DNA from: Methylicorpusculum sp. | Lineage (GTDB): Bacteria > Pseudomonadota > Gammaproteobacteria > Methylococcales > Methylomonadaceae | Direction: 5' to 3' | Assembly (NCBI RefSeq): GCF_030651835.1 | Contig: NZ_JAUSBX010000036.1 | Coordinates: forward strand, 1-64,000 | DNA length: 64,000 nt | Shown here: positions 17,888-31,460 of the stretch, piece by piece | How positions within the stretch are numbered: position 1 is the stretch's first letter | Layout of the letters: every line of letters begins with the position of its first letter | Translations under genes and position numbers: made by a program | Notes under the pieces: model-generated | The model's input: the letters and a program-made list of their open reading frames with translations, nothing else | Told to the model about the DNA's origin: nothing | The model's database searches: none

Positions 17888-20296
17888 TCAATCAAACGGC
17901 CAGGTCCAATTGGCGATTTCACTCTTGTCGGTGCCATGTTCATGGGCGTAGCTGAGATTATCGATAATTTCATTTTTCATCTGTTCTTTCAAATGAGCGG
18001 CTTTGGCGCTTAACCAAGGCACCCGGTCTATGACATCGATCACCAGATTGAAACGGTCGATTTGATTCAGTATGGCCAGTTCCATAGGCGTATTGATGTT
18101 ACCGCGCTCTTTATAACCCCGCACATGCAGATTGTCATGATTGGTAAAGCGGTACGCAAGTTTGTGAATCAACCAGGGATAGCCGTGGAAATTAAAAATA
18201 ACCGGTTTATCCGTGGTAAAAAGACTGTCGAACTCCCGATGAGACAAACCATGCGGATGTTCCGTCGCGGGTTGTAATTTAAACAAATCAACAACATTGA
18301 CAAAGCGCAGCTTAAGTTCGGGAACATGTGCGCGCAAAATCGCCGTTGCTGCCAAGGCTTCCTGAGTTGCCACATCACCGCACGACGCCATGACCACATC
18401 AGGCACTTCACCCTGATCATTACTGGCTTTGGACCAAATCCCGATGCCTTTGGCGCAATGCACGACGGCTTCGTCAATGGTCGTAAATTGCAGATGTTTT
18501 TGTTTATCAGCAACGATGACGTTGATTTTGTCGGTGGAACGCAAGCAGTGATCGGCTACGACCAGCAGTGTGTTGGCATCCGGCGGCAGATAAATACGCG
18601 TGACCTGCGGACTCTTATTGGTTAACAGATCGATAAAACCAGGATCCTGATGCGAAAAGCCGTTGTGATCCTGACGCCAGACTGTCGATGACAGTAAAAT
18701 ATTCTCGGATGCAACCGAAGCCCGCCAGGCAACCAGATTGGAAATGGCCAGCCATTTCGCATGCTGATTGATCATTGAATCAATGACATGGGCAAACGCT
18801 TCGTAGGTATGAAAAAACCCATGGCGCCCGGAGAGTAAATAGCCTTCCATCCAGCCGATCAGGGTATGCTCGGACAGCATTTCCATCACGCGGCCATCCT
18901 GGCTTAATTCGCCCCCGTCCGCATCTTCCGGCAGATAATCGGCCATCCAGCATTTTTTAGACGCTTCAAATACCGCCTGCAAACGGTTTGACGCTGTTTC
19001 GTCCGGGCCGAAGACTCGAAAATTAGCCGCATTCAGACTTAAGGTATCCCGTAAAAACTCTCCCAGCGGCTTGGTGTTTTCATATTCCGCACCCCCCGCT
19101 TTTTTGACTTCGACAGCATACTGACGAAAATCGGGCATTTTAAGTTCTTTTCGCAGCATGCCGCCATTGGCGTGAAGATTGGCGCTCATCCTTCGTGTGC
19201 CCTGCGGTGCCAAGGAGCGCAGGTCCTCTACCAAGCGCCCTTGCCCATCAAACAACTTAGCCGGTTCATAGCTCAACAGCCAGTCTTCCAGCAACTTTAA
19301 CGATTCCGGATTTTCCCGCACATCGGAAAACGGAACCTGATGAGAGCGCCACGAGCCTTCCGCTTTATGACCTTTGACCGTTTTAGGGCCAGACCATCCT
19401 TTAGGGGAACGTAATACAATCATGGGCCAAAAGGGGCGCTCCAGTGTCGTCTTTTCTCCGGAACGGGCGCTATGTTGAATGGCTTTGATTTCACCAATCA
19501 CCGTATTTAAAGTCGCGGCCATCTTCTGATGCATATCCGCAGGATCATCGCCTTCAACAAAATAAGGACGATAGCCGTAACCCATAAAAAGCGCTTCCAG
19601 TTCCTGATGACTGATTCGCGCCAAAATTGTCGGATTGGCGATTTTGTAGCCGTTCAAATTCAATATAGGCAGAACGGCCCCGTCCCGTTGTGGATTTAAA
19701 AATTTATTGGAATGCCAGGCGGTAGCCAGAGGCCCGGTCTCCGCTTCGCCATCGCCGACGACGCAGGCGACGATCAAGTCAGGATTATCAAATGCGGCAC
19801 CATAAGCATGCGACAAGCTATAGCCCAGCTCGCCGCCTTCATGAATCGAACCCGGTGTTTCGGGCGTTACATGCGAACCGATGTGTCCGGGAAAAGAAAA
19901 TTGCTTAAAAAATTTGCGCAATCCTTCTTCATCCAGGCTTTTATCCGGGTAAACTTCGGAATAAGTTTCTTCAAGGTAGCTCGGACCCAATACGCCCGGC
20001 GCACCATGACCCGGACCCGCGATAAAAATAACATCAAGGTCCTGTTCTTTAATCAGACGATTGAGATGAGCCCAGGTAAATGAGAGCGCAGGGCTCGCAC
20101 CCCAATGGCCCAGCAGACGGTGCTTGATATGCTCAACAGTCAACGGCTCTTTAAGAAGGGGGTTGTCCTTCAAATAAATCATGCCCACAGATAAATAGTT
20201 ACAAGCACACCACCAGGCATGAATTTTTCTTAATGCTTCCTGATCAAGCGGCCCGGAACCCGACTGTGAAAGATGAGCATGTTCCCAAGTAGTCAT
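17888..20296 (-). CDS. xfp: Phosphoketolase (xylulose 5-phosphate / fructose 6-phosphate)
   Basis: An 802-residue thiamine diphosphate enzyme that cleaves xylulose 5-phosphate (and often fructose 6-phosphate) with phosphate to acetyl phosphate plus a triose or tetrose phosphate. Visible are the [20 protein letters not shown] motif near residue 130, the diphosphate-binding [19 protein letters not shown] motif near 180, [24 protein letters not shown], and C-terminal [13 protein letters not shown]. The ATG at 20296 has GGAG seven bases upstream. It leads the xfp-ackA operon. Substrate preference cannot be told from sequence. Confidence 0.94.
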
Positions 20297-20932
20297 ACGT
20301 TTTCTCCACTGATTGATAGTAAATTTAATTAGCCTAAAATTATTTCAAGCATTTGGTTTTAGAATACTTATTTTATGCTTCGCATTAATATAAAGGGGGC
20401 AGCACTCTATCTTGCACGACAAACTACATTTTTCTGACGATCGAAGTCTACTTTATCCTTATCTGAATTTCACGTTAAAAAACAGGCGTTGTCCGTCCGC
20501 AAACGAACATCGATGAAAGCTTCAACCGCTGATCACGTCGATTGCTGAGCTACGCTCTCCGTGCTAATGCTACTTTCGTGGTTTATATGAAATCAGAACC
20601 CGGTAAGGCAGATTCGCCAACAGGCAATCCGCCATGGCTTTAAAGAGTGTTGGGGTTTTGCTAATTGGGTGACCCTAAGATTTTGACTTGACCCTAAGTT
20701 TTTTTTAAATGGCCACTCTTGCAAAAGCATTTCGATGGTGCAGTGAATTAAAAGTTCATGTCCGTTGTGGGAGTTGTCGGTGACATTGAAATCGCCGTGG
20801 ACATTTTATCACCGTCGTTATTAAAATCGCGCAATCAAAATCTCCTGTGTTGTCATATTTTGATGCTGCCATTCTGAAGTGCTAATGTGAAGTTCAGCCG
20901 CGTAGCGTTAGCGAAGTCGGCTGGGCGCAAGG
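20297..20932. other. 636-base intergenic stretch at the edge of the accessory island
   Basis: No convincing gene is seen. The first 100 bases presumably hold the leftward xfp promoter. At 20660-20679 lies GCTAATTGGGTGACCCTAAG, followed by a second TTGACCCTAAG at 20688; both resemble a motif at 30165-30183 on the far side of the restriction operon. A 24-codon frame from 20709 (MATLAKAFRWC...) may be a gene remnant. Near 20892-20924 is a small hairpin with AGCCG and CGGCT arms. Confidence 0.5.
20660..20706 (+). repeat. GGGTGACCCTAAG-type direct repeat, left copy
   Basis: GCTAATTGGGTGACCCTAAG is followed nine bases later by TTGACCCTAAGTTTTTTTT. The right-hand copy GCTAATGGGTGACCCTAAG lies at 30165. 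The pair encloses hicAB and the restriction operon and could mark island boundaries or be ends of a vanished mobile element. Confidence 0.5.
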
Positions 20933-21154
20933 CTAAGCATACAGCGCCTCAACGAATTCATCGACGGAAATGCCGGCTTGTTTCAGAACTCCGCTCAGCG
21001 TACCAGCTTTTAGTTCAACGTGGTTTGGCACGACGCAACCCGAGGAACCGCGCCGCATCACGATATGGCTACCGCGCTGCCGTGCAACCACGAATCCCAG
21101 ACGCTGCAAAACCTTTACAGCCTCTGCTCCCGAAACAACCGGCAATTTAGGCAC
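20933..21154 (-). CDS. hicA: HicA-type mRNA interferase toxin
   Basis: A 73-residue HicA toxin with the double-stranded-RNA-binding-like fold: SGAEAVKVLQRLGFVVARQRGSHIVMRR, where the histidine of GSHIVM is the catalytic residue, then VPNHVELKAGTL and ISVDEFVEAL. HicA cleaves mRNA and is neutralised by HicB. The start is a GTG at 21154 overlapping the last codons of hicB, so the antitoxin gene comes first, unlike the classic hicA-hicB order but common in this subgroup. Confidence 0.85.
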   Translation of the reverse strand: MPKLPVVSGAEAVKVLQRLGFVVARQRGSHIVMRRGSSGCVVPNHVELKAGTLSGVLKQAGISVDEFVEALYA

Positions 21155-21353
21155 GTTCCGGCACTTGGAATGAGGTCAGCAGAGGCCGCCCGACGATGGT
21201 AAGAGGGAATTCTTCGAGATAAAGCTCGGTCGCTTCACGCAAATTACTCAAAGCCTCTTCAACGGTTTCACCTTGTGTAGTTGTGCCGGTTTCTGGATTG
21301 AAGGCGATATATCCCCCTTCGGGGCTTGGCGTTAAAACTGCTGAGAGTTCCAT
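21147..21353 (-). CDS. hicB: HicB-type antitoxin
   Basis: A 68-residue antitoxin starting at the ATG 21353 (MELSAVLTPSPEGGYIAF); the upstream codons back to 21389 are atypical for the family. The YIAFNPETGTTTQGETVEEALSNL segment is the partial RNase H-like fold of HicB that binds HicA. No C-terminal ribbon-helix-helix or helix-turn-helix domain is present, so DNA binding may need other residues. It overlaps hicA by eight bases. Confidence 0.83.
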   Translation of the reverse strand: MELSAVLTPSPEGGYIAFNPETGTTTQGETVEEALSNLREATELYLEEFPLTIVGRPLLTSFQVPERA

Positions 21354-21422
21354 GGGTTTGTCCGTTAATGATGCGGGGGTTAAAGACAAGGATAACTTGC
21401 CTCAATGATCAAGCTTAATCGA

Positions 21423-21617
21423 TTATAAATAACTGATACGATTTTGCTCAATTTTTATGTGCTTACGCTTTTGAAGCTCATGGATAAAAGTGTCGATATC
21501 CGCCTCTGAAATGCCACTCTGGAATTGAAACATCGACTTTATTGAATTGACTAACTTCTTTTTCTTGCTCGGTCTCAATTTCAAAAGCCGTTCAACAGCG
21601 TGTCCGATGGTGTCCAT
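21423..21617 (-). CDS. Small basic protein of unknown function
   Basis: The ATG at 21617 gives a 64-residue protein beginning MDTIGHAVERLLKLRPSKKK, rich in lysine and arginine, with two predicted helices separated by a SGISEADIDTFIHEL segment and ending IKIEQNRISYL, a layout like a small winged-helix or helix-turn-helix domain. The frame is open further upstream (to 21815) but without similar composition. It lies between hicB and the truncated ATPase. I do not recognise the family; DNA binding is only a guess from charge and layout. Confidence 0.5.
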   Translation of the reverse strand: MDTIGHAVERLLKLRPSKKKKLVNSIKSMFQFQSGISEADIDTFIHELQKRKHIKIEQNRISYL

Positions 21618-22038
21618 TTCGTCAGTTGCTTGGGGTTCGTGATTTTGGAACTTTTTATGGCAACTTCTGGCTCTGATCGATTTTGTGGGTTTGATGACAA
21701 ACTGCAGAGCAAGGGGCAATTCGATGCGGTAATAATGGAAGCTTGCCGGTCTATTGCAATTTATTACCGAATGACCGGCAGCTTCAATCGCCATCGGCAC
21801 GGTCCGGCAATTCAATCGCTAAAAATGCAAACAATCCTCCACCATCGACGCCACCAGATATGCCGAGTCCGAACTCTTCCAATCAGATAGGTCTGCCAGC
21901 AACAAAACGGGAAATGCCTAAGTCTGAAGTCGCGGATCAAAGAGCAACGGGGGGATAAGTTTTGCAATATAGCAAAACGGCATGAGAATTGACTGTCAAA
22001 GCAACCTTTAGAGGAATAACCGGTTAAAGTGATTGATC
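21618..22038. other. 420-base non-coding stretch in the island
   Basis: No supported gene. It lies between the 64-residue basic protein and the truncated ATPase, where the missing 3' two-thirds of the ATPase gene would be expected, so it is probably a deletion scar or degraded sequence. Confidence 0.4.
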
Positions 22039-22428
22039 TTAAAGAAAGTTAATTCGAAAATCGGTTTTATCCGCAGGATCATTCTTGATCAGATAGTCCT
22101 GCGATACCTTGTCGCCGTCCACCCAGACGAAGGGGCGCTTTTGTTTGGCAGTATCCGCCTGAATACGCACGATGTGGCCGCGAATCGCATATTCCAGCGT
22201 GTAGTCGAAGGAGGCATCGCGGTCCAGATCGATGTCGCGAAATAAGGTAATCAGCGCCTCGATCAAATTGGATTTGCCGGTGCCGTTTTGGCCGATTAAG
22301 GCATGGCTACGGATCGGTTTGCCGGTTTGATCGCACGCTTGCGGCAACGGCTCGAACTGGCTTGAAAATTCAATCGCCATATCGCGCAAATTGCGAAAAT
22401 TGGGGATCGCCAGGTAGCGCAATTGCAT
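22039..22428 (-). pseudogene. AAA-type ATPase, 5' fragment
   Basis: The 129-residue product starts MQLRYLAIPNFRNLRDMAIE, typical of RecF/SMC-like AAA ATPases of defence loci, and has the Walker A motif IGQNGTGKSN near residue 45. It ends at KTDFRINFL without the coiled-coil, signature or Walker B regions, so only the first part of a gene usually several hundred codons long remains. The ATG at 22428 lies next to the hsdS stop (22430-22432), so it was the last gene of the restriction operon. It may encode an ATPase accessory to the system. The fragment is unlikely to work alone. Confidence 0.75.
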
Positions 22429-22429
22429 C

Positions 22430-24418
22430 TCAGGCCTCCGCGCGCTCGGCGGTGACTTGCCGCATTTCGGCGACTTCGGGTTCTTGAATCCAGCCATGCG
22501 CCACTTCGGTTTTGAGTTGCGCGTAAAACGCATCAATCTCGCCGCCGTAGCGTTGCCACAAATCCTTGGCGCTCATTTCGCCATTGTGTCGGGTTAGCAG
22601 GTTTGCCAACGGGGCCTGGGCTTTGATGTCTGGGGTTTGGCTCAGGCGGATTGGGGCGATGAGTTCGGTTGGTGGGGCTTTCATGGGCTCCTCGTTTGGT
22701 TCTGTGGCGATGCCTGTAAAAGTTGAAATGGCAGCAATACATAAACGTTCAGATAACTTTTGACTCTCTAGAAGTTGTGATTCCAGAGAATCGCAACAGC
22801 GCATGAGCTCTTCTAAACGCTTTACGATCCTAGATTGTTCTTGAAGTGGGGGAAGCGGTATTAATATTGAGCTGATGTGATTTTGATTAACCGTCTTTTG
22901 TCCCGCTGTAGTAACGAATTTACCCGCAATCTGTTGGCGAATAAATGGACTTTTAGAGGCGAACCAAATATATGCCACATTAATCATTTTTGGTATCAGG
23001 CGTAAACGAATAAAGTGATCGCAATACGCGATGTGCTCAAGATCAACCTTGATAAAACTACCAACTAAATCAGAACTGCCATTTACTCGGGTTATCAGAA
23101 TGTCACCTTCTCGCAGGAAATATTTTTCTTTCTAAACATCGTTTAATTGAATTGACCTTGGTTCCAACAAAGAAATCTTATTATTAGCGATATCTGCTAG
23201 CCTCAGAACCGTGATTGAATCACCTGAGCTTCCTTGTCTCTTTGATATGCCATTTTGAAAGTTTGGAGCTAATTCACCAAGTCGAGTCCATAGCCAATTT
23301 TTAGGTATATCAAACGGCAAATCATCTACTTGCAATTTAGGAAACGACTTTGGTCTGTTTGTTCTTTTATTTTGAAGTAACTTTTGCTCAATTGTTTTAA
23401 TTTCCTCAAATGTTACAAGAGCTGGTGTATCAACGTCTTTCTGTTCCGTAAGAAACCCTCGTATAGCTAAATCAAGAAGTAAATTTCTCAACCCCACTAC
23501 ATCATCCGGCGCACTAAATAACTGTCCAAAGTTGTTGGCGAGGCTTGTCCAGGTGGTTTGGAGTTCGTGGGGACTGGTTGCGGTGGCGACGGCTTGCAGC
23601 ATGGACTGGCGCAAGGCGTTTTGCAGTTTGCGGCGCTGCTGCTGTTGCTGTTCCAGCCTATCGCACAAGGCCATCAACTCATCGACTTTGGCGACGATGC
23701 GGGCTTGTTCGTCAAGTGGTGGTAGCGGGACCGGCAATTCTCGTACCTTATCCGCATTTAAATTTTGTACAACAGCACCAGCGGCTGACTTTAGGAAAAA
23801 GTTAGCGACGAATGGTGAAGAAAGTAAGTGATAAAGGTAGTCCTTTTCAAGGCATGAGGGTGGATGAATTCTTAACCAACCGTCATGAATGCATCCTTCT
23901 ATGTTTGTAATGTATGGGCGACCAAAACTCATTGAATTGGTTAATAAAAAATCGCCTGGATAAACCATCCGAGTTTTAACCAAACCCTCCTTCTTTATTT
24001 TTTCTCTCGTCGAAGTGATGAATTTCGAACCCTTGATAGTATCTCCTATTTTTATCCAGCTCAATCCGTCTGGATCGTTGGTTAAAAAATCATCAATTGG
24101 TCGAGGAGATCCACCACGTTCTATTTCAGCTATATCACCAAGGCGAACCCACTCCCATCCTTGAGGTTTTTCGAATGGCATATCCGAAGTGCTAATCTTT
24201 GATAGCGTATTTGGAAGTTTTGATTTGCTATTATTTGATACATCTCGTTTTCCAGCAGTAATGTTTTTTAGTAACTCACTAGCTGGCGAATCATTTGAAT
24301 CTTGTGCAATTAATCTGCCCTGTACAGCCAAGGCCAATACCATTTCACGCAATCGCACCAAGCCCCCCGGCGCATTCGCAATATGCCCAAACTCCGCCAA
24401 AAACTGTTGCGCATCCAT
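22430..24418 (-). pseudogene. hsdS: Type I restriction specificity subunit HsdS, one in-frame TAG stop
   Basis: The full frame would encode about 662 residues with two target-recognition domains, each followed by a conserved helical spacer (LPPLDEQARIVAKVDELMALCDRLE after the first; LPPLQEQSRIVKRLEELMRCCDSLE after the second). It is interrupted by one TAG at 23132-23134, inside the second recognition domain, after QLNDV and before KEKYFLREGDIL, where a glutamate codon (GAG) is the likely ancestor. Frame and sequence continue intact on both sides. The upstream piece (428 residues) carries one full recognition domain. The ATG at 24418 overlaps the stop of the DUF1016 gene (TGATG). Confidence 0.85.
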
Positions 24419-25476
24419 CAGGCTTCCTCGCCGTTTTGGTCGGTCGTGCGGTTGTCCAGCCGTTGCCGGAAGCGGGTGATGGCTTCGTGCAGTTTTTGTT
24501 GCAGCAGGGCTTTGGGTGGCAGTTCGGTTAGGTATTCGGCAACGTGAATGCCACTGGCGTCCAGTTCCAGCAGTTCGATTTGTTCCTGTTTTTTACCGCT
24601 GCACAAGATAATGCCCAGCGGTGCGGCTTCGCCGGGTTCCTGTTCGTGTTTAGCCAGCCAGCGTAAATACAGTTCCATTTGGCCTTTGTCGGCAGCTTTG
24701 AAGTCACCCAGTTTTAAATCGATTGCCACCAAGCGTTTGAGGCGGCGGTTGTAAAACAGCAGGTCGATGTAGAAATCGTCGTTGTCGATTTGCAGCCGCT
24801 TTTGGCGGGCAACAAAGGTAAAACCTGCGCCGAGTTCCAGCAGAAAATTTTCCAGTTCACGCAGTATGGCGTCTTCCAGGTCTTTTTCCAGATAGCGGTC
24901 TTGCAGGCCGAGAAAGTCCAATACGTAGTGGTCTTTGAGTATCAGCGTTGGACTTATCTGGTCTGTCGCGCGTAAATTGGCTAATTCACTGGCCAGCAGT
25001 TCATCGGGCAAGAGGGATAAGGCGGTCCGTTCAAACAGCAAGGAATCCAATCGCTCTTGCAAAGTGCGAGTACTCCAGCGTTCTTGCTGGCACATTTGCA
25101 GGTAAAAATCCCGTTTAAGTGGGTCGTCGATATAGATCAGGGTTTTGATATGCGTCCAGCTCAATTGTCTCCGCACTGCGGAGACAATTTCGGGGTCGGC
25201 AAAGACTTCAGCAAAACGCAGCATGTGGCGCAGGCTTTTAGCGGAAAAGCCGCGTCCGTAGTCGGTTTCTAATTGTCTCGCCAGTGTCGAGACAATGTGC
25301 TCGCCGTATTCCGCACGTTGGTGGTTCAACACTTCGCTGCGGATGCGTTGGCCGATGTGCCAGTAGAGCCGGGTCAAGGCGCTGTTGACGGTAACGGCTA
25401 GTGCACTGCGGCTGGATTCGATTAACTGGCGGATGTCGCCGATTAATTGAGGATTGGCTGGTGTGGCTTGTTTCAT
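24418..25476 (-). CDS. DUF1016 / PDDEXK-family nuclease (YhcG-like) inside the restriction operon
   Basis: A 352-residue protein. The N-terminal part (about 10-150) matches the DUF1016 domain: ALTRLYWHIGQRIR, YGEHIVSTLARQLETDYG, FSAKSLRHMLRFAE, LSWTHIKTLIYIDD. The C-terminal part is a PDDEXK nuclease fold: a glutamate helix, DDFYIDLLFYNRRLKRLVAI and then the DLK catalytic lysine. Such proteins are frequent companions of restriction systems and have been linked to DNA breakage or recombination. It starts within the hsdM stop (ATGA) and ends in the hsdS start (TGATG), so it is translated as part of the operon. Its role is not established. Confidence 0.82.
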   Translation of the reverse strand: MKQATPANPQLIGDIRQLIESSRSALAVTVNSALTRLYWHIGQRIRSEVLNHQRAEYGEHIVSTLARQLETDYGRGFSAKSLRHMLRFAEVFADPEIVSAVRRQLSWTHIKTLIYIDDPLKRDFYLQMCQQERWSTRTLQERLDSLLFERTALSLLPDELLASELANLRATDQISPTLILKDHYVLDFLGLQDRYLEKDLEDAILRELENFLLELGAGFTFVARQKRLQIDNDDFYIDLLFYNRRLKRLVAIDLKLGDFKAADKGQMELYLRWLAKHEQEPGEAAPLGIILCSGKKQEQIELLELDASGIHVAEYLTELPPKALLQQKLHEAITRFRQRLDNRTTDQNGEEA

Positions 25477-27242
25477 TCCACCTGCTCCGCAGTGAAGTGA
25501 TGCGCTAAGGCCGAGGCCAGTTCGCTTTTTAGATTATTTTCGGTTTCTTGAATTTCACCCAACAACGTTTTGTATTTTTCCAGCAGCAAGTCGGGATCAT
25601 GGCTTTCTTCTTGAGGTTTGTTTGGGTTTGGCACATCCAAATTGTAAATGGGCCAATACAGGCGGTCGCCTGCGGCTTGAGCATCGCGGGCTTGCAGGCG
25701 CAAGGGTTCTACCTGTTCGCGCAAGGCGGCAATTTGGGCGTTAATCTGTCCGCGGTAGGCGCTGTCGGTGCTGCCAACCAGACTTTTGGCTAAGTCTCTG
25801 GCTTGGTTTTCTAAACCAGAGGCTTGATTATTCAGTTGTTCGGCACGTTGCCAATGCGGCTGGGCGGCGGCTTCGGCTTGTTGGCGTTTGGCGCTAAAGT
25901 CGATTTTCCAAGCAAATTCGTTTTCGACGCGGTCGGCAAAGTCGTTGTCGGCATTGCCCCACCAATCTTGTTCGGGTTTGAACTCCTCAAAACGGATCGG
26001 TTTGGTTTTGGAATAGCTTTTGTAGCCCGCAGGATAGGGATGTTCGTAAAACCAAATGCTGTCGGTATGAAAATGCTCGCTGCCATCGTCGATGAACGGG
26101 CCTTTGGTGAAAAACAACAAATTGGTTTTGATGGTGGTGTACGGCGCAAACACGCCTTTGGGCAGGCGGACGATGGTGTGCAGTTTGCATTGCTGCATGA
26201 GGCGTTTTTTGATTTCGGCTTTAATGCCGTCGCCAAATAAAAAGCCATCCGGCAACACCACGGCGGCGCGGCCATTTTCGCGCAGCAATTTGACAATCAG
26301 CTGCATGAACAAGTCGGCGGTTTCTTTAGTGGGGTGGTGATAGCCCGCAGCCACGTTATCGTCTTCGTAGCCGCCAAACGGTGGATTGGTGATGACGCAA
26401 TCGACCCGGTCGTTGGCATTCCAGTCGTTCCAGCCAATCGCCAGGGTGTTTTTGTGCTCGATCTGGCTGGGCACGTCGATACCGTGCAGCAGCATGTTGG
26501 TGGTGCAGAGCAAGTGCGGCAGTTGTTTTTTTTCTATGCCGTGGATCAGATTCTCAATGGCCCGCTGGTCTTCGGCACTGGATTTATCCGTGATTTGTTT
26601 GCGGAAGTGGTCAATTGCTGCGGTTAAAAAGCCGCCGGTACCGCAAGCCGGATCGATCACTTTTTCGCGTTTATCCAGGCGCGGATTGATGCGGTCCACC
26701 ATGAATTGGGTGATAGCTCTGGGCGTGTAAAATTCCCCGGCATTTCCAGCACCGCGTAGGTCGTTGAGCATTTGTTCATAAACGTCGCCCAGACTGGCAC
26801 GGGTAGTAAAGTCGTGGAAGTTGATGGCTTCTTCCAGCTTTTCGATCACTGCCAATAACTGGGTACCGGATTTCATATAGTTGTTGGCATCCTCAAAAAC
26901 GCTGCGAATGACCTTGTGCTGCGGACTGAGGTTGGCATCCAGCTCTTTGAGGCCGGGGAACAGTTCGTTGTTGACGAAACTGATGATATCGGACGGTGAC
27001 TTTTGCGGGGCTTTTTTGCCATCCGGGCCTGCAACATAGGCTGCCCAGTTTCGCCAGCGGAAATGCTCGGGCAATGGCGAGCGATAGCTTGCATTATCGT
27101 CTTCCCATTCTTCCTCGCGTTGATCGAATACTTTCAGGAACAGCATCCAGGTTAATTGCCCCAAACGTTGGGCGTCGCCATCGACGCCGTCGTCTTTGCG
27201 CATGATGTCTTGGATCGATTTGATGGTACTGCTTAGATTCAT
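25473..27242 (-). CDS. hsdM: Type I restriction-modification methyltransferase HsdM
   Basis: A 589-residue N6-adenine methyltransferase subunit. An N-terminal helical HsdM domain (KDDGVDGDAQRLGQLTWMLF) precedes the catalytic domain, with GEFYTPRAITQFMVD, the S-adenosylmethionine motif DPACGTGGFLTAA and the catalytic NPPFGG. The C-terminus has a long alanine/glutamine-rich coiled region (about 460-530) that would contact HsdS. All key motifs are intact. It needs HsdS to select target sites, and that gene carries a stop. The ATG at 27242 lies 29 bases after the hsdR stop. Confidence 0.92.
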   Translation of the reverse strand: MNLSSTIKSIQDIMRKDDGVDGDAQRLGQLTWMLFLKVFDQREEEWEDDNASYRSPLPEHFRWRNWAAYVAGPDGKKAPQKSPSDIISFVNNELFPGLKELDANLSPQHKVIRSVFEDANNYMKSGTQLLAVIEKLEEAINFHDFTTRASLGDVYEQMLNDLRGAGNAGEFYTPRAITQFMVDRINPRLDKREKVIDPACGTGGFLTAAIDHFRKQITDKSSAEDQRAIENLIHGIEKKQLPHLLCTTNMLLHGIDVPSQIEHKNTLAIGWNDWNANDRVDCVITNPPFGGYEDDNVAAGYHHPTKETADLFMQLIVKLLRENGRAAVVLPDGFLFGDGIKAEIKKRLMQQCKLHTIVRLPKGVFAPYTTIKTNLLFFTKGPFIDDGSEHFHTDSIWFYEHPYPAGYKSYSKTKPIRFEEFKPEQDWWGNADNDFADRVENEFAWKIDFSAKRQQAEAAAQPHWQRAEQLNNQASGLENQARDLAKSLVGSTDSAYRGQINAQIAALREQVEPLRLQARDAQAAGDRLYWPIYNLDVPNPNKPQEESHDPDLLLEKYKTLLGEIQETENNLKSELASALAHHFTAEQVE

Positions 27243-27271
27243 GAGTTGTTTTTGTTAGGAGGCCGGCAGGC

Positions 27272-29692
27272 TTAGGCCTGTTTTTGTTCTGGCGTTTCGT
27301 AGAGTGCTTGTTCCAACTCGTGCAGGGCTTGGCTGAATTGTTCGGCGCCGCCAAAAATGCCGCGACGGATTTGGGTCTTGCTGCCGAATTGGTCAAAGGG
27401 CGGTAATTCTAATATTTTGGCGTCTTCGATGTCTTGTACGCCGTGGTCGGCGAATTTTTCCAGCAAGGCTTCCAACACTTGCCGGGCCTGCTCACCGTAC
27501 TTACCGAACACATCGCGTTTTTTAACCTGATTGGCGCGTTCGCGACGAGTAAGCGGTTTTTGGTCGAAAGCGACATGGGCGACCAAATCGAAAGCATCGA
27601 GTTGAGCGCCATTAGCGACGGCTTGTTGAAGCACATCGAGTGGAATGCCGTGATCAGCCAGTTCATCGATAACGGCTTGTTTGCGATCCGCGCTATTCCA
27701 GCGTTTGAGAAAATCGTTGAGATTGCCGAACTCGGCTTGTAGGGTTTTACGAATCTGATCTTTCAGATGAACCCGATATGCCTCGGTAATCAGCCTACCA
27801 TCAGCATCCAAATATTGTATGAGTTCGACCGCTATATGCACGTCTACATCATCGATGACAATTTTGGTTCGGCTTTCGCGGCCTCCGATATTGTCTTCGC
27901 CATCGACACCATTTTCCGTTTCCGGCTGATAAGGCTGTTGCGGTTCGTTGACATTGTTCGGCTCGGTGACTTCGGGCGGAACAACCGGTTCGTCAGGTTT
28001 GGGTTCGTAAATGACCACCGGTTCGCCATCGAAATCCGGGTCGGCAAACAGACGGGTTGCCCCCTTGAAATCCATGATGGTGAAATAAAGCTTGTTATAG
28101 TCTTCACGCAACCGTGTCCCGCGACCGATGATTTGCTTGAACTCGGTCATTGAGTTGATGGTTTGATCCAGCGCGATCAGTTTGCAGGTCTTAGAATCGA
28201 CACCGGTGGTTAGCAGTTTGGACGTGGTAGCGATGACTGGGTAAGGTTCGTCGTTGTCAATGAAGTATGACAGTTGGGCTTTACCTTCGTTGTCGTCACC
28301 AGTGATGCGCATTACATAGCGGCGATTGTTTTTCGCGGCAGGAATCAGGTTAACCAAGGCCTGGCGCATGCGTTCGGCATGGTCTTGGTCGTCTCAGAAC
28401 ACAATGGTTTTGGCAAATGGGTCGGTCGCCTTGAGATATTCCCAGACCTTGCTGGCGACCAATTGGGTACGCTTTTCCAGCACCAGATTGCGGTCGAAGT
28501 CCTTGGTGTTGTATTGCCGCTGCTCCACCGCTTGACCAAGCTTATCGACCTTACCCTTCTCCGGTGTGTAGCCAACCGCATCGACATCGGTGGCGATACG
28601 GATGACTTTGTACGGTGCGAGGAATCCGTCTTCAATACCTTGCCTTAGCGAGTAGGTATAAACCGGATCGCCAAAATAGGTAATGTTGCTGACATCCTTG
28701 GTTTCTTTGGGGGTAGCTGTGAGGCCCAAATGCGTGGCACTATTGAAGTAGGCGAGCACCTCGCGCCAAGCGGAGTCTTCTGCGGCGCTACCACGGTGGC
28801 ATTCGTCAATGACAACCAGATCAAAAAAATCGGCTGGAAACTGGCGATAGATTTGCTTCCATTCTTCCTTGCCGGTGACCGCTTGATAGAGGGCTAGATA
28901 GATTTCGTAGTTTTTCTTGATTTCGCGGTTGGTGACTTTGTGCATTACCTCGCCGAACGGTGCGAAGTCTTGTTGCATGGTTTGGTCAACCAGGATATTG
29001 CGATCAGCCAGGAACAGGATGCGTTTCTTGGACTTAGCTTTCCACAGTCGCCAAATAATCTGGAAAGCGGTGTAAGTTTTGCCGGTGCCAGTGGCCATGA
29101 CTAACAGTACGCGTTGTTGGCCCTTGGCGACCGCCTCTATCGCGCGATTGATCGCCACGCGTTGGTAATAGCGAGGCTCTTTGCCGCTGCCATCGGTATG
29201 GAATGGTTGTTCAACGAGTTTAATAGCTTCGGGAGCTGCCAGCCCTTTCCATTGTTGGTATAGGGGCCATAGATCATCGAGAGATGGGAATTCGCTGAGT
29301 TGCAGTTCGCGTTCCACTGGTTGAGTGAGACCGGTGCGGTCGTGCAGCAAAAAGCCGTCGCCATTGCTGCTGATGGCAAACGGTGCATCCAGCATCTCGG
29401 CATAGGCCAAGGCCTGTTGCATGCCATGCCCAATTGAAAACTTGGCTTGTTTGGCTTCAACTACTGCTATAGGAACGTTCGGCCTGGCATAAAGCACGAA
29501 ATCGGCGCGTTTGGGACCGCCTTTGGCTTCCGGATTTTTGATGCGAGCAGCCAGATTACCTCTCACCATCACACGGCCATCAGTAAGTTTTACTTCCTCA
29601 CGGAACTGGTGTAGTTGCCAACCTGCTTGTTGGATTGCGGGTGTGATGTACTTTGTACAGATGTCGCGCTCACTGAGTTGGAATTTATCCAT
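27272..29692 (-). pseudogene. hsdR: Type I restriction subunit HsdR, one in-frame TGA stop
   Basis: The full frame would encode about 806 residues. The N-terminal nuclease domain ([20 protein letters not shown]), Walker A ([14 protein letters not shown]), Walker B (VVIDECHRG) and LTATP are intact. A single TGA at 28394-28396 follows FAKTIVF; the text continues in frame as DDQDHAERMRQALV, where family members read FC-x-DQ, so TGC or TGT to TGA is likely. The stop separates the two helicase domains. The second piece holds motifs ATTSKLLTTGVD and QIIGRGTRLRE and the C-terminal region. The start chosen is ATG 29692 ([12 protein letters not shown]). Without readthrough the motor is incomplete. Confidence 0.87.
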
Positions 29693-29721
29693 GGCCGACT
29701 GCTCTCCCATTAATCGCGCTC

Positions 29722-29904
29722 TTACTCTTCATTCGCGCCGCCCGCGCGCACCCATTCATCGACTTCGGATAACTGAAATTTCCACAGTCGCCCAATCTTG
29801 TGCGCGGGCAACCCCTTACGCTCACGCCAGCGGTAGACAGTGTCTTTAACCACGCCCAGATGCTCAGCGACTTGCTCGGCGATGACCCACGCTTCGGTGT
29901 TCAT
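29722..29904 (-). CDS. Excisionase-type helix-turn-helix protein
   Basis: A 60-residue protein of the MerR/excisionase DNA-binding family: [21 protein letters not shown] as the helix-turn-helix, then [21 protein letters not shown]. It is the first gene of the restriction operon, 29 bases before the hsdR ATG. Small proteins like this often precede hsdR and may control its expression; the related Xis role would need a recombinase, which is not present in the window. Whether it regulates the operon is inferred. Confidence 0.75.
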
Positions 29905-30228
29905 AACATTGGCGATCAGGTGCTGACCCTAATAGTTGTCTTAAAGCGTTGAAAGTCTAACAGGGTGGCTGCTTAATGGCTATGAAAAACTAGGAGCATA
30001 GCTAGCCTGACTTAGTGGTGATAGAGCGTTAATGTCACCGTAAACAAAGACGCGCAGAATCCAGAAGACATCCAAGTCAAGCCGGCGCAACTGCAACAAA
30101 TCGCCGACGACCATTTTGGTCAGCGCGACGGGGTCACCCATTAGTTTTTCTTTGACTACGACAGGCTAATGGGTGACCCTAAGTTTTTCCCTTTCATAGG
30201 CAAAATGAAATCAGCTGAGTTTGCCGGT
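29905..30228. other. 324-base spacer at the right edge of the island
   Basis: It contains a 39-codon open stretch at 30025-30144 (VKPAQLQQIADDHFG region) with no start codon, probably a 3' gene remnant, followed by a perfect 14-base inverted repeat (30131-30144 with 30166-30179). The upstream part presumably holds the leftward promoter of the restriction operon. Nothing else is recognised. Confidence 0.45.
30131..30190 (+). repeat. Hairpin and right copy of the GGGTGACCCTAAG-type repeat
   Basis: GGGTCACCCATTAG (30131-30144) and CTAATGGGTGACCC (30166-30179) form a perfect 14-base stem with a 21-base loop, followed by TAAGTTTTTCCCTTT. The right arm plus TAAG repeats the motif at 20660-20679. 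It could be a terminator for the remnant gene as well as an island-edge repeat. Confidence 0.55.
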
Positions 30229-30717
30229 TTAGTTGAAATAAGACGCCAGCCACAACCTGAATCTTAAACCGAATTCCGTACTGTAACCTATTGATGAAAA
30301 AACGATATGACCGTTTTTATTAAGGAAAAATATCGCCGGCACACCTTTGATGCCGTAACGTTTTGCCGCAGCACCATCGGCATCGTTCACGGTGGGCCAG
30401 TTCAAATTACGGCTGGCTAGATAGCGATTTACCTGCTCGGTGGGGCCTGAATTAAGCGCCACAGTAATTCCAGGCGTATCTTGTAAAACCTTTGACATTG
30501 AACTTTGCATCATGCCGCACAACCCGCACCAATCAGCCCAAAAATAGATAATTCCTCCACCCTTAGGCATAACGGATTCTGTGGGCAGACCCGCAATAGT
30601 CTGTTCAGCCAGTTGCGGCGGCACTCCTGAGACCAGCCCCCGATTGAACAGGAATTGGCCTGAAAACAGCACGATAATGACGATACCATACAGAATGGCG
30701 TGTTTAAGCCACTTCAT
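30229..30717 (-). CDS. Membrane-anchored thioredoxin-like disulphide reductase
   Basis: A 162-residue protein with one N-terminal membrane anchor (about 6-26) and a periplasmic thioredoxin fold. The active site is WCGLCGMM (CGLC) near residue 68 and the cis-proline is in GVPAIFFL. It resembles ScsD/TlpA-like proteins that handle periplasmic disulphides, for example in cytochrome or copper-protein maturation. Its ATG overlaps the stop of the metallopeptidase gene (TAATG), so the two are co-translated. The partner is unknown. Confidence 0.78.
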   Translation of the reverse strand: MKWLKHAILYGIVIIVLFSGQFLFNRGLVSGVPPQLAEQTIAGLPTESVMPKGGGIIYFWADWCGLCGMMQSSMSKVLQDTPGITVALNSGPTEQVNRYLASRNLNWPTVNDADGAAAKRYGIKGVPAIFFLNKNGHIVFSSIGYSTEFGLRFRLWLASYFN

Positions 30718-31460
30718 TAAAGCCCCATCAGTAAATGGCCGCCATTGATCTTAAGCCACTGCCGCAGAGTCTTGTACTCAGGCATATGTTCAGCAACCAG
30801 CTCCCAAAACTGACTCGAATGATTACGGTGTTTAATGTGACACAATTCGTGCACGACGACATATTCCAATACTTCCGGAGGCGCCAGGATCAGCAGCCAA
30901 TTCAAATTGATATCGTTATAAACTCCGCAGCTACCCCAGCGGCTTTTTTGAGTTTTAATTTTGATACTCCGGGGATAAAGTCCATATCTTGCCGCATGTT
31001 TGTCAACACACTGCTCCACCATGCGTTTAGCTTCAAGCTTTAGCCAGCGCGTAAACGCCGAGCGAATAGCTTCGTGCAGGTCAGCTTCCAATAAGGTATG
31101 CGGAACCGACGCAATAAAATGACCGGTGAATTCCAAAGTTATTTTTTTGCGCTTAACTGGAACGATAACCAGCGGATAACTTCGATCCCGATATGGCAAT
31201 AAAGCGCCATGGGTATAAGTGGCAGGTGCCAGGCTGCGGAGATTTTCCCGCCGGTTTTTAAGCCGCTCTTGAGTGCTCAACACCCAGTCCTGTTTTTCCG
31301 ATACGAAACGATGAATACTTTGTTCCGAAACGCCGTGCGGGGCGATAACCTCAACCTGTTGAGACGTCACGCGCAAGCGCACAAGGCGAGCCCGTTTGCT
31401 GCGAAGAATCTGATAGGGAAACGGTAACGTATTGATGACTGGAACTCTATTGAATAGCAT
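30717..31460 (-). CDS. YgjP/SprT-like zinc metallopeptidase (DUF45)
   Basis: A 247-residue protein of the M48-like YgjP family. The zinc motif is VVHELCHIKHRNHSSQFW (HELCH with a downstream histidine), preceded by KTQKSRWGSCGVYNDINLNWLL, the family signature. ATG 31460 is preferred to an upstream TTG at 31469. YgjP proteins are cytoplasmic peptidase-like proteins of uncertain role. The stop overlaps the start of the thioredoxin-like gene. Confidence 0.83.
   Translation of the reverse strand: MLFNRVPVINTLPFPYQILRSKRARLVRLRVTSQQVEVIAPHGVSEQSIHRFVSEKQDWVLSTQERLKNRRENLRSLAPATYTHGALLPYRDRSYPLVIVPVKRKKITLEFTGHFIASVPHTLLEADLHEAIRSAFTRWLKLEAKRMVEQCVDKHAARYGLYPRSIKIKTQKSRWGSCGVYNDINLNWLLILAPPEVLEYVVVHELCHIKHRNHSSQFWELVAEHMPEYKTLRQWLKINGGHLLMGL

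Follow-up and report, generated by a model that had tools for sequence, protein, structure and literature searches.

A type I restriction-modification (R-M) cassette of the methane-oxidising bacterium Methylicorpusculum sp. was analysed in a window of 64,000 nt, the whole stretch of DNA under study, taken from contig NZ_JAUSBX010000036.1 of a draft genome (GCF_030651835.1; 159 contigs, estimated to be 100% complete). The cassette lies on the minus strand at positions 22039–29904. One nonsense codon interrupts hsdR and a different one interrupts hsdS, hsdM and a DUF1016 nuclease gene are open, and a terminal ATPase gene is reduced to its start. We consider it highly probable that a horizontally exchanged type IB defence cassette with DUF1016 and a Septu-like ptuA is here in an early phase of decay, its functions having been lost one after another and recently. 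A first-pass annotation of this DNA had offered both stepwise decay and selection against cutting, with the methylase and nuclease kept for another use. Stepwise decay is supported by two independent nonsense mutations and a lost ATPase end, where relatives have uninterrupted copies; selective retention of the methylase and nuclease is not supported, as set out below.

The interrupted cassette and its family

From 29904 down to 22039, the operon consists of a helix-turn-helix (HTH) gene, hsdR, hsdM, DUF1016/YhcG, hsdS and the ATPase stump. The hsdR pseudogene (27272–29710; EcoAI/FtnUII family, 812 codons read through plus the final stop, with nuclease and motor domains) has a single internal stop, an in-frame TGA at codon 439 (28394–28396). 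The hsdS pseudogene (22430–24418; 662 codons read through plus the final stop, with two target-recognition domains) likewise has one, a TAG at codon 429 (23132–23134). Full open frames were found for hsdM (25473–27242, 589 aa) and, between hsdM and hsdS, for a gene with DUF1016_N and YhcG PDDEXK nuclease domains (24418–25476, 352 aa). The first-pass annotation had described both stops, both open genes and a shortened ATPase gene correctly. Because homology to relatives continues in frame on both sides of each stop, the hsdR and hsdS stops are gene interruptions and not gene ends.

When the window was scanned for coding potential, three stops that lie between coding-like stretches in one frame were flagged, the hsdR stop among them. 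The other two are at the ends of neighbouring genes, which we take to be CheA-like and flagellar-export regions. The scan was strict, with a threshold of 0.15 against a median of 0.143 for true coding pieces, and it missed the hsdS stop, the call of which rests on homology; its silence elsewhere is thus slight evidence against further stops of this kind in the window.

Read through with X at the stop, HsdR matched NF046051 (EcoAI/FtnUII) with 1122.7 bits against a cut-off of 550, and its closest solved relative was 3h1t (E = 9.3e-166). The EcoEI_R_C domain (residues 649–804) lies behind the stop, as do the motor motifs TTGVD (501) and QIIGRGTRL (526), which we take to be parts of the helicase core. 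HsdM has N6_Mtase and HsdM_N domains. The read-through HsdS frame contains two Methylase_S stretches, the first at 85–261, and its best PRK09737 stretch is at 372–549; the TAG interrupts the second target-recognition domain (about 372–549) some 57 residues after its start, so that residues 1–428, ahead of the stop, hold an intact first recognition domain and central region. By these matches the locus is a type I R-M system of the EcoAI family (type IB), followed by a Septu-like ptuA start. It shares with EcoAI, EcoEI and CfrAI the HsdR family, the EcoEI_R_C domain and the gene order R, M, (X), S, but differs from them in the nonsense codons and in the DUF1016 nuclease gene between hsdM and hsdS. 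A type IB system has uninterrupted R, M and S frames; with its TGA and TAG the locus is, judged from sequence, a decayed member of the group.

Decayed R-M systems form a class in REBASE, according to the available part of PMC3874165, and the decayed type I systems there likewise have disrupted reading frames, with no substantial difference from the locus described here. Extra defence genes inside an hsd operon are also described, in PMC3874165 and PMC12255303, for EcoprrI (prrC) and for the RRDM island with DarTG2, whereas here DUF1016/YhcG and ptuA fill that place. A literature search at the level of titles and abstract openings turned up no account of the arrangement found here (DUF1016, Septu, nonsense codons, hsdM–hsdS interval).

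For comparison, related-genome contigs were scanned with HsdM as bait, and the best 80 of 305 relatives were kept. A homologous ATPase frame was found in 49 of these 80 loci, some of which are cut by contig ends. It is 539–658 aa long in 47 of the 49 and 223 and 487 aa in the other two; the window has 129 aa of about 600 (22039–22428). The stump best matched PtuA1 of PADLOC (PDLC00293, 3.1e-33), the ATPase of the PtuA/PtuB pair that makes up Septu. Homology of the window gene to its relatives ends at 22054–22090, and no C-terminal remnant of ptuA was found in the window. The sole match to ptuB in the window, of 21 residues (E = 0.15), is not credible. In relative L012 a full ptuA-like gene (662 bits) is followed by a PtuB-like gene, and scanning the genes downstream of ptuA in L012, L025, L048 and L010 gave a PtuB match in all four; type IB and Septu thus appear often to travel together. 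Septu requires full-length PtuA and PtuB, and the window has neither, about four fifths of ptuA being gone. A ptuA-like ATPase gene behind hsdS is seen in relatives such as L012, L020, L025 and L048.

By the established mechanism of the family, HsdM is guided by HsdS to a split site, which it methylates, and HsdR cleaves DNA that lacks this methylation; the intact cassette would have worked in this way. Three separate lesions have struck it here. The hsdR stop removes the later motor motifs and the C-terminal domain of HsdR, which should abolish cutting; the hsdS stop removes most of the second recognition domain, so that HsdM should no longer be guided to the original site; and the third lesion removed roughly four fifths of the ATPase and presumably ptuB with it. 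As predicted from these losses, cutting by the cassette should have ceased, and methylation at the original site has most likely ceased as well. The order of the events and the neutrality of the loss are inferred. We take hsdM and DUF1016 to be open because the decay is recent; they are not demonstrably kept. DUF1016 may act on its own.

Age of the stops and the mosaic structure of hsdR

Behind the hsdR stop, the window departs from consensus at 2 of the 141 invariant columns and 8 of the 95 nearly invariant ones, and at 25 of the 89 middling and 28 of the 47 variable columns. These changed fractions exceed the medians of uninterrupted relatives and do not pass their 90% points. The 2 of 141 equals that 90% point, and is far from what a uniform spread of the 63 changes would give. 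Since the changes avoid conserved columns, the back of hsdR has not been drifting freely. The lack of a second stop in hsdR and hsdS limits neutral divergence since the loss to at most roughly 1.6% per site, a rough bound that assumes equal base-change rates and one common time and ignores indels. By these measures the stops look young and the decay recent.

The two parts of hsdR differ in their closest relatives. Ahead of the stop, the protein shares 95% identity with that of Methylomonas koyamae SM2 (L077) and its terminal branch is 0.03, and behind the stop the best match is 82% and the terminal branch 0.32 (the bootstrap of one hsdR tree analysis had not settled). Third-position identity falls from before to behind, from 65 to 47% with L077, 65 to 45% with L073, 59 to 47% with L011 and 59 to 45% with L080. 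In a maximum chi-square test on same-residue codons with these four partners, 0, 0, 1 and 0 of 2000 permutations reached the observed value. The break was estimated at 28411 and 28429 with two partners, 15–35 bases from the stop, and at 28765 with the other two, about 370 bases away. Five of six control pairs were reached or exceeded by 91–242 of 2000 permutations, and one (L016/L067) by 3 of 2000; because this control pair also shows a break, the window is not alone in having one. Between relatives, too, identity drops somewhat behind the break (L077–L073 from 62 to 54%, L077–L011 from 57 to 49%). From this pattern hsdR was most likely assembled from two lineages, its back part apparently being an isolated and divergent but functional allele acquired by recombination. 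The position of the stop beside the break may be a coincidence, a by-product of the exchange or the result of chimeric assembly. Relaxed selection was considered as the main cause of the divergence behind the stop and was rejected, since third-position identity drops too, the break is supported and conserved columns are kept.

Retention, chance and other explanations

The pattern of open and stopped genes was compared with chance by counting every single-base change that creates a stop, which gives 281 opportunities in hsdR, 211 in hsdM, 131 in DUF1016 and 284 in hsdS. The probability that two random stops both fall outside hsdM and DUF1016 is 0.39, and the probability that exactly one falls in hsdR and one in hsdS is 0.19. 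At 0.39, the contrast between open hsdM and DUF1016 and stopped hsdR and hsdS needs no selection and lends no statistical weight to the possibility raised in the first-pass annotation, that cutting had been selected against while the methylase and nuclease were kept.

Relatives also give no sign of such retention. Intactness was counted in 73 of the 80 loci (L009–L081), leaving out seven more distant ones; "broken" here means not one full-length frame, and at least one incomplete hsdR (L059) and several of the short DUF1016 genes are each a single open frame that lacks an internal stretch. Complete hsdR was found in 63 loci and incomplete hsdR in 9 of 72, with one further locus cut by a contig end. 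Complete hsdM was found in 66 and incomplete hsdM in 7 of 73 (two by nonsense mutation, four by a frame change or indel, one partial). hsdR alone was broken in eight loci, hsdM alone in six and both in one. The hsdM gene is therefore broken about as often as hsdR, although an HsdM bait favours intact hsdM; these are draft genomes that may contain sequencing errors. Stops also occur inside hsdS in some relatives, such as L043 and L047 (hsdS was not counted systematically), so that across species interruptions are found in hsdR, in hsdM and, at some loci, in hsdS. In a locus of the same genus (L106, genome G001), hsdR, hsdM and DUF1016 are one frame each and the hsdS match is split over two frames near its end, while in L105 (genome G005) the ptuA match is split over two frames; partial damage is thus present in near relatives too.

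The nuclease fares no better. A close DUF1016 gene is complete in 28 of the 73 relatives, shortened in 7, absent in 35 and ambiguous at a contig end in 3. The hsdM–hsdS interval is, on this evidence, an exchangeable slot. Some loci carry a distant DUF1016 (about 33% identity) instead of the close one. Of the family-invariant positions, the window has changes at 3 of 167 in DUF1016 (rank 26 of 29), at 2 of 323 in hsdR (rank 52 of 61) and at none of 223 in hsdM, so that over the longer term constraint on DUF1016 does not exceed that on hsdR. Pairwise dN/dS values against the nearest relatives are low, about 0.03–0.12 for hsdR, hsdM and DUF1016 where dS could be computed, with most dS estimates close to saturation. 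Of the changes assigned between the window and L009, 55 in hsdR go to the window and 49 to L009; the corresponding numbers are 32 and 17 in hsdM, and 13 and 13 in DUF1016. With so little divergence since the loss, there is little power to detect later selection on hsdM or DUF1016.

A second EcoAI-like hsd operon lies in the same genome on contig C58 (10688–17688), with HsdR, HsdM and HsdS 54%, 51% and 28% identical to those of the window. Its hsdR (822 aa), hsdM (485 aa) and hsdS (621 aa) are all open, while its DUF1016 gene is cut to the N-terminal domain (192 aa); the frame adjoining the latter is presumably GIY-YIG-like. C58 is the reverse of the window, having kept the cutting genes and lost the nuclease half of DUF1016. 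Since a complete-looking type I set is kept on C58, the loss of the window system may cost the cell less.

Some observations weigh against recent stepwise loss. The ratio of protein distances behind and ahead of the hsdR stop is 1.58 for the window, the highest of 61 sequences (the next is 1.35), and taken alone it could be compatible with relaxed selection and an older stop. The absence of change at the invariant columns of hsdM fits decay and retention alike. The loss of modification is not certain, since a half-length HsdS could still support methylation. The hsdR stop is very near the estimated mosaic break in two of the four comparisons, which also fits a chimeric assembly, and the stops could be assembly errors.

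These points lead to two explanations that we judge unlikely. One holds that one or both stops are sequencing artefacts, or that two hsdR alleles were assembled into a chimera, and it is favoured by the short distance from stop to break at 28411/28429, by the 159-contig draft state of the genome and by the TGA occupying a site where all 76 aligned stretches of relatives carry Cys. However, an operon with two stops and a heavily truncated ATPase gene is typical of decay, the other two comparisons put the break some 370 bases off, at 28765, hsd genes are commonly mosaic in general, and one control pair breaks as well. The other, to which we give the same small chance, holds that an R-minus state was selected, in which HsdM and a self-pairing 428-residue HsdS fragment methylate a palindromic split site as an orphan methylase. 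The stop does leave the first recognition domain (85–261) and the centre complete, hsdM is unchanged at 223 invariant columns, and engineered and natural truncated S subunits methylate symmetric sites, as described in the available parts of PMC6158711 and PMC3874165. Among these, half-length HsdS can support methylation in EcoDXXI-deltaC, EcoR124I-delta50 and NgoAV (PMC3874165, in part). In these systems and in the engineered half-S of S. aureus CC398 (PMC6158711, likewise in part), S is cut after the first recognition domain, whereas here the fragment ends about 57 residues inside the second domain and not at the end of the centre, HsdR is also broken, and the locus is known from sequence alone.

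The remaining evidence also counts against a selected orphan methylase: the stops are distributed as if at random, relatives show no tendency to keep hsdM, and hsdM is not unusually well kept, with 32 changes to the window against the 17 to its nearest hsdM relative, L009. In type I enzymes HsdS places HsdM on the DNA, and because HsdM needs HsdS for its site, the hsdS stop does not preserve a methylase unless a half-length HsdS works; the first-pass suggestion of a kept methylase is weakened accordingly. A more elaborate version, in which the truncated HsdS pairs with itself and forms with HsdM a nuclease-free methylase with a new palindromic target, the loss of cutting is coupled to the change in methylation, and DUF1016 works alone, we regard as slightly less probable again.

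Recoding and reversible switching we regard as far less credible than either. Were the TGA read as selenocysteine or the TAG suppressed, full-length HsdR and HsdS would be made, and the TGA does stand at the invariant Cys. Against this, the two genes have different stops, and the genome searches were negative: the best SelB match scored 194.5 bits (cut-off 242.25), the best tRNA-Sec match scored 44.9 (gathering score 47; 150 of 338 candidates scored), and no stop-reading tRNA was found among 35 anticodon types at 40 tRNA places by ARAGORN, run on 42 loci covering these places (150 of 223 candidates scored at first look). Selenocysteine or suppressor recoding was rejected on these searches, with their partly scored lists. 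Reversible on/off switching by nonsense mutation has in its favour that both frames are open but for one codon apiece. However, within 20000–31000 no simple repeat was found at either stop (three weak tandem arrays lie elsewhere there), nor a second hsdS copy or long inverted hsdS repeat, and the ATPase deletion is irreversible. Features of phase-variable type I systems were thus missing from that region, the rest of the genome being covered by DNA similarity, where matches fell in parts of the C58 hsdS.

Upstream region, surroundings and meaning

The first gene of the operon (29722–29904, minus strand) encodes a small DNA-binding protein of 60 aa with an excisionase-type HTH_17 domain, and an HTH gene of at least 60% identity lies 5' of hsdR in 15 fetched loci, among those with enough upstream DNA. 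RptR, a 79-aa repressor, is described in the available part of PMC12255303 as having a TAGCTA operator ahead of type I operons. TAGCTA occurs at 29999–30004, 100 bases before the HTH gene of the window, and upstream in 3 of the 15 relatives; the 16 upstream regions together thus contain 4 sites where base composition predicts 1.1. It ties with GCCGGC as the most widespread of the 64 six-base palindromes in these regions, and its distances vary from 67 to 209. The motif is a weak hint of a possible shared operator; the HTH_17 protein of the window has 60 aa, against 79 aa for RptR.

The cassette is flanked by a 24-base direct repeat (88%) at 20666–20689 and 30170–30193, 9.5 kb apart. The stretch at about 20597–20663, directly before the left copy, recurs in several related genomes, and the repeat may be part of a dispersed repeat. 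Left of the cassette, 20890–21693 is 84–85% identical to places in four related genomes (G037, G032, G011 and G029). It contains a small DUF7387-like frame (21147–21389) with a Pfam match just below cut-off, which we take to be HicB-like.

The locus is one more decaying type I locus and as a discovery matters little. It does provide a worked warning, in that two random stops in four genes spare hsdM and the nuclease about four times in ten. If a half-length HsdS does work here, the locus would show in nature how a defence operon can become a methylase with a changed specificity. The mosaic break close to the hsdR stop offers a modest clue to how segments are swapped between hsd genes and how these genes decay.

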